From a virus, in IMG/VR virus record IMGVR_UViG_3300045110_000303, positions 1-40,861 of that record: a stretch of DNA of 40,861 nt. The stretch is one strand, 5' to 3'. Below the pieces are notes generated by a model that worked only from the letters and a program-made list of their open reading frames with translations, ran no database searches and was not told where the DNA came from. Shown here one piece after another: positions 3,853 to 12,074 of this stretch (the first letter of the stretch is position 1; each line of letters opens with the position of its first letter). A program made the position numbers and the translations under genes.

Positions 3853-4073
3853 GGCCGATTGCGCGCGCGGGTCTTGGCCGATGCAATCCAGTCCTCGAGC
3901 GGCGCCTTCGGGTTAGGGAGAAGGGCTAGCAGCCGATATGGCCAGGGCGCTTGCTTGGCCAGCATCGCGCGGCGCAAGGCAGGCGCGGCACGGAAGCGCT
4001 CGTAATCGGCCTCGGTCAGGCGGTCGGGAAAGGGCGGGGCGAAGCCGCGCTTGCCGTCGTCATGATTTTCCAT
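3849..4073 (-). CDS. Small protein of unknown function
   Basis: A 74-residue protein containing RLTEADYERFRAAPALRRAM, a short helical unit, and a basic C-terminus. It overlaps the DnaA-domain gene upstream by 14 bases and the next gene by four (ATGA). It is part of the leftward operon; no family recognised. Confidence 0.55.
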   Translation of the reverse strand: MENHDDGKRGFAPPFPDRLTEADYERFRAAPALRRAMLAKQAPWPYRLLALLPNPKAPLEDWIASAKTRARNRP

Positions 4074-4515
4074 TCAGTGCCTCATCGACCAGGGCGCGAT
4101 ATTTTCGGGTGCTATGGATTACGGTCGAATGGTCGCGCCCGAAGACGTGTCCAATCCGCGTGGTAGACCAGCCGCAGACGATGCTCGCGAATGCGATTGC
4201 CTGCTGGCGCGCTTGCGCGACCGGCTTGCCTCTGCGGCGCGAGGCCAGCACGGCCTCGTCGATGCCGAATGCCGCACCGGCAACACGGCGCAGAATCATG
4301 CCGCGAGACGCCCAGGCCGGCGCGCGCTCGCATCGCGCCTGATACTCATCACGCATCCAGCGCAGACGTTCGAGGTCGTCATCGAAGGATTTCTGCGTCG
4401 GCGGCTTCTTCTTCTTCTGCGCCGGCTTTGCGTAGGCAAGCACGAGCGCAAACTCAGCATGCCGGCGTTGCTGCTCGGCGCGGCCGACGAGGAGATGATC
4501 AAGATGATGCTTCAT
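4060..4515 (-). CDS. DnaA domain IV (DnaA-box-binding) protein
   Basis: A 151-residue protein. Residues 76-142 match the C-terminal DNA-binding domain of the replication initiator DnaA: a basic loop (SRRRGKPVAQARQQAIAFA), a helix-turn-helix and the signature GRDHSTVIH at 126-134. The ATPase domain of DnaA is absent. The N-terminal part has a Lys-rich linker (QKKKKPP). In the host, domain IV reads DnaA boxes. Here it could compete with host DnaA, guide replication of the phage or act as a transcription regulator. The start at 4515 lacks an obvious Shine-Dalgarno sequence. Confidence 0.85.
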   Translation of the reverse strand: MKHHLDHLLVGRAEQQRRHAEFALVLAYAKPAQKKKKPPTQKSFDDDLERLRWMRDEYQARCERAPAWASRGMILRRVAGAAFGIDEAVLASRRRGKPVAQARQQAIAFASIVCGWSTTRIGHVFGRDHSTVIHSTRKYRALVDEALNGKS

Positions 4516-9744: not shown

Positions 9745-11655
9745 ATGAACCTGTCGGCGCAAACCGAACTGCGATCACAGTTATTGCGGGGAGGTTATTC
9801 CCCGATTCCACTGCAGGGCAAAATACCACCCATGGAGGGATGGCAACAAAAAACCCAGACAAATAACGATGAAATAAAGCTATGGTCAAACCTTTATCCT
9901 TACTGCGGCAATACCGGAATTCTAACCCGACTCTCACCCACAATCGACATCGACATCATGGATCAAGCCGCCGCTGAGGCGGTGGAGGAACTGGCGCGGG
10001 ATAGGTTTGAGGAGCGTGGATGGTTTCTGGTGCGAATAGGTAAAGCACCCAAGCGCGCGGTCGTGATGAGGACATTGACGCCCTTCAAAAAGGATCAACT
10101 GAAGCTAGTCGCGCCGAATGGCACCACGGGCAAAATCGAGATACTCGCGGACGGGCAACAGGTCGTCGTCGACGGCATTCATCCCGACACACAAAGACCG
10201 TATACCTGGCACGGCGGCGAACTTTGGAGCATTGCCGCCGAGGAATTGCCCTACATTTCCGAGGCGGAAGCGCACACCTTTCTCGCCGATGCGGGCGAGC
10301 TGCTCGTGCGGGATTTTGGTTACACCGTCGTCGAGGCCGCAAAATCCAACGGCACTAATGCTGACCACGCCGCGGGCGCCGATTGGAGCGACCACATCAA
10401 TGCAATTCTGACCGGCACCGACCTCCACGACTCGACGACGGCGTTAGCCGGTAAATTGGTCGTTGGCGGCCTTAACAACGGACCAAGCGTGCGGCTCCTG
10501 CGCGCCATCATGGGCGCGTCGGCGGCACCGCACGACGAGCGATGGCGGCTCCGTTATGACGACTTGCCGCGCGCGGTTCGCACTGCGAGAGAAAAGCTTG
10601 TTCCCGTTGGCGAGCCCAGCAAGCCTACCGTCGGGGCGTTGCTACTGACCTTGGCCCGGTTCGTGGCTGGGTTCACACCGCCGGCCTATGTCGTCGACGG
10701 CATACTGCAGCGTGGCTACCTCTACAGCCTCACGGCGCGGACCAACCACGGCAAGACCACGATAGCCATGTTTGTCACCATCTGCATCGACCGCGGCGTG
10801 CCAATTCACGGAAGAGAGGTACTAGGCGGGACGGTCCTGTTCCTGGCCGGCGAAAACGCGGACGACATCCGAGCTCGATTTCTGGTGGCGGCCGACTATT
10901 ACGGCTTCGATCTCAACACCAGCAGGATCAGGGTTATCGATGGGGTCCTCAATCTTGAGGAACGGATGCCGGTCATCCGGGCCGAGACGGATCGTATCGA
11001 CGATCTTGTGCTCGTGATTGTCGATACGGCGGCGGCCTACTTCCCAGGCGACGAGACCAACAGCAACAGCCAGCAGGCCGCCTATGCCCGCCAACTGCGC
11101 CAACTGACCCTGCTGCGGGGCAAGCCGACCGTTATCGTCAATTGCCACCCCATCAAGAACGCCGCCAAGGACAACCTGCTGCCGGCCGGTGGTGGAGCCT
11201 TTCTCAACGAGGTGGACGGTAACCTGACCCTCTGGGCAGATGAAAAGCAGGTCACCTTGCACTGGCAGGGCAAGTTCCGCGGGCCAGAGTTCGAGCCCTT
11301 GCTGTTCGAGCTGGTCAAGACCGAGAGCCCGCGCGTCGTCGATGCCAAGGGCCGGACGATGCCCTCGGTGGTTGCCCTGCCGACCGCCGACAATGCCCTC
11401 GAAGCCGGCGACCGCAAACGGGAGGACGAGGAAAACAGGGTGCTATGGATCCTGGCCGAAAACCCGCGCGCATCCTTCATGCGGATTGCGCAAAAGGGCG
11501 ATTTCGTCATCGACGGCCGAGAGCAGAAGGCCAAGGTCCAACGGATCATTGGTCGCCTGGCGGCGGACAAGCTCGTGGCCAAGCACCGGGGCAAGTATCG
11601 GATCACTGAATCGGGGCGAAAAGAGCTCGGATTGAAGGACGATGGAAGTGACTGA
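9745..11655 (+). CDS. Primase-polymerase / RepA-like helicase fusion
   Basis: A 636-residue replication protein. Residues 1-160 resemble the bifunctional primase-polymerase (Prim-Pol) domain: YSPIPLQGKIPPMEGWQ, IDIDI with Asp68 and Asp70, and VVDGIHPDTQRPYTW. Residues 310-540 are a RecA-like AAA_25 ATPase: Walker A at 329-339 (LTARTNHGKTT, first Gly missing), Walker B LVIVDT with Asp427, then NCHPIKN and an LPAGGGAF loop. The C-terminus (570-636) looks like a winged helix. It would prime and unwind DNA at the adjacent iteron origin. Confidence 0.9.
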   Translation: MNLSAQTELRSQLLRGGYSPIPLQGKIPPMEGWQQKTQTNNDEIKLWSNLYPYCGNTGILTRLSPTIDIDIMDQAAAEAVEELARDRFEERGWFLVRIGKAPKRAVVMRTLTPFKKDQLKLVAPNGTTGKIEILADGQQVVVDGIHPDTQRPYTWHGGELWSIAAEELPYISEAEAHTFLADAGELLVRDFGYTVVEAAKSNGTNADHAAGADWSDHINAILTGTDLHDSTTALAGKLVVGGLNNGPSVRLLRAIMGASAAPHDERWRLRYDDLPRAVRTAREKLVPVGEPSKPTVGALLLTLARFVAGFTPPAYVVDGILQRGYLYSLTARTNHGKTTIAMFVTICIDRGVPIHGREVLGGTVLFLAGENADDIRARFLVAADYYGFDLNTSRIRVIDGVLNLEERMPVIRAETDRIDDLVLVIVDTAAAYFPGDETNSNSQQAAYARQLRQLTLLRGKPTVIVNCHPIKNAAKDNLLPAGGGAFLNEVDGNLTLWADEKQVTLHWQGKFRGPEFEPLLFELVKTESPRVVDAKGRTMPSVVALPTADNALEAGDRKREDEENRVLWILAENPRASFMRIAQKGDFVIDGREQKAKVQRIIGRLAADKLVAKHRGKYRITESGRKELGLKDDGSD

Positions 11656-11880
11656 AATCATTAAACAATCATCGTATCACCCCCGTTTGATACGCCAAAT
11701 ACACTGTATCAGGGTGATACGGGACCGAGATACGATTGTCAGATTTCCCATAACCCCATGAAAAGATACACCCAATTAGTATCAGAACCGATCGAACGGT
11801 CATCCACTATGAAACCGTATCGTATCGGGGTTCTTACTATTGGTTCTTACTATTGGTTCTTACTATTGGTTCTTACGGTC
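11656..11880. other. Candidate replication origin: GATAC iterons and AT-rich 13-mers
   Basis: GATAC or its complement GTATC occurs nine times between 11674 and 11826 (at 11674, 11689, 11706, 11716, 11729, 11765, 11779, 11817 and 11822). Less than one would be expected by chance. Two of them form the dyad GTATC-AGGGT-GATAC at 11706-11720. Directly next to them are three tandem 13-mers (11831-11869). The stretch is AT-richer than its surroundings, has no gene, and follows the primase-helicase gene. Iterons plus an AT-rich unwinding element is the standard layout of initiator-dependent origins. Confidence 0.7.
11831..11876 (+). repeat. Tandem 13-bp repeats (3.5 copies)
   Basis: TTCTTACTATTGG is repeated at 11831-11843, 11844-11856 and 11857-11869, followed by a partial copy TTCTTAC to 11876. 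The full copies are identical. Their AT content and 13-base period recall the 13-mers of the bacterial oriC unwinding element. Confidence 0.9.
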
Positions 11881-11927
11881 GGTTTTTTATTCGGTGTCCG
11901 GGTGGCCCCATTCGGCCCGGCCCGATA

Positions 11928-11966
11928 GGGGTGCGCTGGAACTTGTCAGGAGAACCAGCGCACCCC
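11928..11966. promoter_or_regulatory. 12-bp perfect hairpin beside the origin
   Basis: GGGGTGCGCTGG at 11928-11939 pairs perfectly with CCAGCGCACCCC at 11955-11966, leaving a 15-base loop that contains AGGAGA. No U-tract follows, so it is not a classical terminator. It could be a priming or single-strand-origin structure, or an RNA element in the leader of the next gene, which starts 22 bases later. Confidence 0.55.
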
Positions 11967-11987
11967 GACCCGCGGGAGGCGAGGCAG

Positions 11988-12074
11988 ATGACCGAGACCC
12001 AGGAGCGCACGGCCATCGTGCTGGCCATCGTGGCCGCAGCCGTCATCGTCGTCCTGATGCTGGTGCTGACATGA
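11988..12074 (+). CDS. Tiny single-pass membrane protein (28 residues)
   Basis: The frame reads MTETQERTAI followed by an uninterrupted hydrophobic helix (about residues 10-28, Val/Ala/Leu/Ile) and stops. GGGAGG lies about nine bases before the ATG, and the stop overlaps the start of the next gene (ATGA), both good signs of a real gene. It is too short for any domain; an N-in/C-out membrane peptide is likely. Confidence 0.6.
   Translation: MTETQERTAIVLAIVAAAVIVVLMLVLT

Follow-up and report, generated by a model that had tools for sequence, protein, structure and literature searches.

In SaPI/PICI elements the replication origin lies directly 3' of the rep gene and is read by the C-terminal domain of Rep (PMC7581432, PMC6092414). 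Fusions of a primase with a RepA-type helicase and a winged helix are also known (PMC5862659), and AAA_25 proteins that carry a winged helix of the kind considered here were described in 2022 as a family without known function (PMC8965321). For such RepA-type helicase/primase/winged-helix fusions, we found no description of iterons in the parts of the open-access literature available to us. Here we analyzed a 40,861-base record of a soil phage (the window, i.e., the whole stretch of DNA under analysis), which encodes an integrase, RecT, YqaJ, a DnaA C-terminal domain protein and a large terminase, and in which an array of short repeats is located between the stop codon of a replication gene and the next operon (Table 1). 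From comparison with related loci, we consider it highly probable that this GATAC array is the replication origin of the phage, and that its reader is the winged helix at the C-terminus of the protein encoded immediately upstream.

Table 1. Positions of the features discussed, numbered from the first base of the window.
Feature	Position	Strand	Basis or remark
DnaA C-terminal DNA-binding domain only protein	4060-4515	minus	Bac_DnaA_C, E 5e-14
Three-in-one replication protein gene	9745..11655	+	636 aa, single chain
Winged-helix domain, residues about 549-627, predicted iteron-reading initiator domain	11389..11625	+	AlphaFold2, pLDDT about 95
Recognition-helix codons, residues 595-607 (K595 A596 K597 V598 Q599 R600 ...)	11527..11565	+	column association and held-out test
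Iteron array, nine GATAC sites	11674..11826	both	site counts and shuffles
Individual GATAC sites	11674-, 11689+, 11706-, 11716+, 11729+, 11765+, 11779-, 11817-, 11822-	as signed	
AT-rich mid-array stretch, candidate melting region	11734..11778		64% AT over 45 bp in twin L002
Box AACCCCATGAAAA	11752..11764	+	mid-array in seven loci that have five different iterons, +91 to +114 from the gene end
13-mer tandem repeat GGTTCTTACTATT, 3.7 copies	11829..11876	+	TRF, 100% match
12-bp hairpin, separate conserved element at module boundary before DUF6362 operon	11928..11966	+	

A sequence-only reading of this stretch had counted nine GATAC/GTATC sites, and the count is correct: nine copies fall within 11656-11830 and span 153 bp, the last two being spaced exactly 5 bp. 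In 2000 dinucleotide-preserving shuffles of the same interval the word occurred 0.87 times on average and four times at most, and the whole 40.9-kb window holds 46 copies. Because five-base words are many, and another one reached at least nine copies in 3 of the 2000 shuffles, the array of the window taken by itself is strong but not decisive evidence, and it is the relatives that decide. The twin contig L002, whose protein is 97% identical, keeps eight of the nine sites (the one at 11765 is missing) together with the 13-mers and the hairpin that follow the array, and its similarity to the window stops just past the hairpin. GC skew showed no switch at 11656-11966, a result which is uninformative because the skew is weak along the whole window.

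The protein encoded upstream of the array carries a Prim-Pol domain at residues 15-164 (Pfam PF09250, E 2e-13) and an AAA_25 domain, a RepA-like RecA-fold helicase, at residues 302-473 (Pfam PF13481, E 9e-19), the latter being the sole Pfam match in the helicase part. A fold search of the PDB returned RecA-fold proteins and DnaB, the Walker lysine is invariant, and no solved structure was matched to the 636-aa protein by sequence search. In an AlphaFold2 model built from 32 aligned sequences, which is poor in the Prim-Pol part and confident from residue 300, the C-terminal region is predicted to fold as a winged helix, with helices at 549-572, 578-584 and 595-607 and strands at 611-614 and 617-620. 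The earlier statement that the genome has no recognizable RepA-like initiator is thus reversed, since the 636-aa gene itself has a RepA/DnaB-type RecA-fold helicase and a predicted initiator domain.

Searches of phages and plasmids with the whole protein returned Prim-Pol-domain relatives only, and a first whole-protein scan of genomes returned no relatives. With the helicase part alone as the query, two scans reached the family at 18 viral and 40 genome loci, the latter mostly in Bradyrhizobium, Mesorhizobium, Methylocystis and other alphaproteobacteria. This first set comprised about 57-59 loci, and a held-out set of 49 non-redundant loci was assembled from new scans by discarding any locus more than 90% identical to a member of the first set or to another new locus. 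The best 6-mer directly 3' of the gene exceeded all 200 shuffles in 42 of 59 loci of the first set, and in nearly all of those 42 the array is unequalled by any other 300-bp stretch of the locus; 37 of the 49 held-out loci likewise carry a significant array in this position. Displaced arrays were found 0.5-1 kb downstream (CGTATC x9 at +971 in L083, CGTACC x9 at +543 in L131 and CGTTTC x11 at +468 in L138), and in a subset of relatives, e.g., L094, L098, L133, L171 and L195, the array search found none. The array of L083, which is of the GATAC type, lies about 1 kb from its gene apparently through inserted DNA. Across loci the sites follow a common theme, NNNAC and then mostly G or A, in which NNN varies by locus; the words seen are GATAC, GGAAC, TGAAC, GTAAC, CGCAC, GGGAC, AAAAC, GGTAC, GACAC, CTTAC, CGGAC, CGTAC, CCGAC and GCAAC. 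They were taken from exact NNNAC counts, an EM motif finder having given loose motifs and been dropped, and the register of a site is uncertain where it is near-palindromic, as in CGTACG.

An array located between two genes could also be read as a cluster of operators, at which the winged helix or another repressor regulates the downstream operon and no replication starts; paired inverted sites such as GTATCAGGGTGATAC are operator-like, and sequence-specific binding alone would be no proof of an origin. The distribution of the array argues against this. It goes with the helicase gene and not with the downstream gene, in that phages with other replication genes have no array despite sharing the downstream hairpin and gene; arrays occur in displaced positions as well, an operator of 7-15 sites over 150-300 bp would be a large one, and the precedents of like anatomy are origins (PMC7581432, PMC6092414). 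We regard an operator cluster as decidedly unlikely and an origin that travels with its initiator gene as the better account.

We further analyzed whether the iterons covary with the initiator gene among related phages, a comparison that the sequence-only reading had proposed, and the outcome was positive by partial Mantel test, by column scan and by held-out prediction. With helicase distance controlled, the recognition-helix distance was associated with the motif distance at a partial Mantel r of 0.43 (0/2000 permutations), as against a maximum of 0.23 and a mean of 0.01 for the same test on 83 blocks of residues 300-560, kinship being controlled in loci that share descent only through helicase distance and the removal of relatives above 90% identity. 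In a scan of 297 columns, R600 and K597 ranked top for iteron position 1 and A596 for position 3, and no clear partner column was found for position 2. A minimal pair is provided by L092 (KVFRI, GGAAC) and L101 (KVFAI, TGAAC), the helicases of which are 81% identical. GATAC is accompanied by Q599-R600 in separate lineages (the window clade, L107 and L122) and also in held-out loci.

Associations found in the first set were then tried on the held-out loci, which are not fully independent of one another. A majority rule on residue 596 gave position 3 correctly in 23 of 30 loci (permutation p < 5e-5), the baseline of always answering A being 13 of 30, and residues 596, 597, 599 and 600 together gave the exact triplet in 13.5/32 loci, versus 7/32 when the nearest helicase relative was used instead. 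With relatives above 50% identity barred, triplet prediction was 0.23 from the four residues and 0.04 from the nearest helicase relative, with random pairs at 0.08. Of 39 loci with G at position 1, 37 have R600, so that the residue is nearly necessary, but it occurs with other bases too; as a sufficient predictor of that G on its own it was rejected, the held-out 2x2 test being not significant (p = 0.30).

The failure of residue 600, taken singly, to predict in both directions in held-out loci could be taken to mean that the covariation is shared cassette inheritance, with another protein reading the sites, the more so as close relatives share iterons and Mantel-type tests can be anti-conservative. 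We consider this very unlikely. Columns of the helicase and linker, which have the same phylogeny, give no comparable signal; the recognition residues beat helicase similarity exactly where close relatives were barred; and the pairing of GATAC with Q-R recurs across separate lineages. As far as sequence comparison can tell, NNN tracks the recognition helix and not helicase phylogeny.

The phage-encoded DnaA-domain protein had been put forward as another possible reader of the iterons, and host DnaA may be considered alongside it: a Bac_DnaA_C protein is encoded in the window and is present in the twin. Against this, only 4 of 24 related records showed the domain, and most of the array-bearing records are without it, some being fragments. 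The interval 11600-12000 has no DnaA box at up to one mismatch, and one two-mismatch box at 11800 compares with 51 such boxes in the window. The iterons track the recognition helix of the helicase protein itself. It is extremely unlikely that DnaA reads these sites, and as a general explanation DnaA was rejected, the domain being usually absent and good boxes lacking. The winged helix encoded directly upstream of the array stands as the probable reader.

The elements that follow the array are present as described earlier, namely three exact tandem 13-mers (TTCTTACTATTGG at 11831-11843, 11844-11856 and 11857-11869, plus a partial fourth) and a perfect hairpin with arms of 12 nt at 11928-11939 and 11955-11966, 100% complementary, around a 15-nt loop. 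The three elements are adjacent and all conserved in the near twin, and the 13-mers, which are rich in AT, adjoin the last pair of iterons, as might be expected if the whole block 11656-11966 were one oriC-like machine. This is nevertheless unlikely, since the 13-mers were found only in the window and the 97%-identical twin and are missing in all other relatives, and since the hairpin is conserved without an origin. The 13-mers are possibly an extra AT-rich unwinding element of the window phage and its twin only.

A DNA search of 34 related records matched four of them, besides the twin, in the hairpin stretch alone; the hairpin and the bases before it are conserved, and some stem changes preserve pairing. 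L008 and L011 have this hairpin in front of the same downstream gene but beside other replication genes, a DUF1376 primosomal protein in both and additionally a helicase-loader-like protein in L011; the array is absent there, and there is no room for one. Since the hairpin is kept without the array beside unrelated replication genes, we assign it to the downstream operon as a boundary element. It may be a terminator or an RNA control site, and an Rfam search with it gave no match of weight. Of the layout proposed in the sequence-only reading, an origin beside its initiator and the winged helix of the prim-pol as its reader were thus retained, while the hairpin, the DnaA-domain reader and the 13-mers as a general part were given up.

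Other observations were made around this boundary. In the sister phages L008 (6056-7379) and L011 (762-2016) the replication cassette has been swapped whole, the VRR-NUC gene and the hairpin that bound it being the same. The conserved hairpin is GC-rich, with loop CTTGTCAGGAG and flank CGGCCCGGCCCGATA, and it precedes the DUF6362 operon independently of the replication genes in the window, L008 (7402-7459), L011 (2047-2106), L099 (5626-5686), L140 and L141. A 28-residue ORF at 11988-12074 of the window encodes a strongly hydrophobic stretch (MTETQERTAIVLAIVAAAVIVVLMLVLT), and the twin lacks this ORF at the same place.

Within the arrays, the largest gap has a mean AT content of 0.52, versus 0.48 in the rest of the array (44 loci, p = 0.02, a weak difference), and it is no larger than random site placement would give. 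A box matching AACCCATTGAAAA at up to two mismatches was found at +91 to +114 after the gene in seven loci (the window, L087, L101, L103-L105 and L114), versus a shuffled mean of 0.3 and maximum of 2. In many loci of another branch a GC-rich stem-loop is located mid-array, frequently with a loop containing TTTA and with CCATT...AATGG flanks, and resembles single-strand initiation hairpins (L091, L106, L109-L112, L116-L123, L125, L128, L134 and L135). The box near AACCCATTGAAAA and the TTTA-loop stem-loops may be melting or priming elements. A general tandem pair of sites spaced 5 bp beside an AT-rich element was also tried and rejected, the pair occurring in only 13 of 45 loci with no AT rise after it.

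From the array, its position and the conservation of that position, the divergence of its motif and the association of the motif with the recognition helix of a predicted winged helix, we infer that the array functions as an origin, and that binding, loading of the helicase, melting and priming take place there in the following scheme. The protein whose gene ends at 11655 would bind the GATAC sites via its C-terminal winged helix, and the bound protein would gather its own RepA-like ring helicase on the array DNA. DNA would be opened in the AT-rich mid-array stretch, and perhaps also at the 13-mers, the Prim-Pol domain of the same protein would prime synthesis, and a host polymerase would take over after priming. 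Initiator, helicase and primase, which are three proteins in RSF1010, would here be contained in one chain, and the origin would adjoin the gene for that chain on its 3' side. In relatives the NNN of NNNAC[G/A] changed along with the recognition helix, and each phage would thereby recognize its own origin.

We lean, by a small degree, towards a wider reading, in which these proteins form a large and hitherto undescribed family of self-initiating helicases of the RepA-like (RecA-fold) type. The winged helix fused to each helicase would recognize an origin word of five bases, diversified into about 20 dialects, through a short recognition code by which the origin could be predicted from the protein. 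In this code D or E at residue 596 would specify C at position 3, S would specify A, and A, G or P would specify T; R600 would go with G at position 1, E599 with GGG and Q599-R600 with GAT. If this is true, the code may stop co-resident phages from firing one another's origins. One repeat cluster would have led to a family of roughly 100 pairs of initiator and origin, each partner being legible in the sequence; collections of this kind are rare, and their natural variants would allow direct tests of joint change in initiator and origin specificity. The same reading would supply a likely function for the winged helix of AAA_25 proteins and a route to locating phage origins in metagenomes.

Several described systems can be set beside this family. 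SaPI/PICI rep-ori units, and likewise SCCmec Cch2, have an iteron origin immediately 3' of the initiator-helicase gene, the position taken by the array, the probable origin, in the family here. In SaPI/PICI the C-terminal domain of the helicase reads short iterons, and sequence covariation points the same way here; the primase adjoins or is fused to the initiator helicase there and is fused here; and PICIs place iteron sets around an AT-rich region (PMC7581432, PMC6092414), to which the 45 bp of 64% AT in the twin may be compared. Whereas SaPI/PICI helicases are of the DUF927 or D5/Primase_Cterm types and the elements are satellites that need a helper phage, the helicase here is AAA_25/RepA-like with a RecA fold and is carried by phages with their own terminase and by alphaproteobacterial prophages, and because of these two differences we set the family outside SaPI/PICI rep-ori. 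Bacterial oriC is read by DnaA at DnaA boxes, in contrast to the array region, where none was found at up to one mismatch (11600-12000).

The P4 alpha protein combines primase and helicase with a winged helix at its C-terminus, by which the repeats of the origin are bound (PMC4234260), as is predicted here, but its primase is of the Toprim type, whereas that of the present protein is of the archaeo-eukaryotic type (Prim-Pol) and its helicase has a RecA fold. RSF1010 oriV shares the combination of a RepA-type hexameric helicase, a small primase and an iteron-reading initiator (PMC4234260), ring formation being predicted here; its RepC, RepA and RepB' are separate proteins, in contrast to one 636-aa chain and short 5-6-bp sites on both strands. 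Proteins of the pRN1 ORF904 type (Sulfolobus plasmid; Bordetella phage BIP-1) likewise join Prim-Pol, helicase and a C-terminal winged helix, with the origin directly downstream of the gene (comparison in PMC4234260), but they use an SF3 helicase and a large stem-loop as the origin, whereas the present family has iterons and the hairpin of the window belongs to a different module. Roseophage CRP-810 has the same two Pfam domains (Prim-Pol/AAA_25), and YqaJ in the same genome, according to the part of PMC11288001 available to us; origin, iterons and winged helix are unreported in that part, and the phage is set beside the family by description. Taken together, these comparisons suggest that the Prim-Pol/AAA_25/winged-helix family resembles SaPI/PICI rep-ori, P4 alpha and RSF1010 in its mode of working but belongs to none of them.
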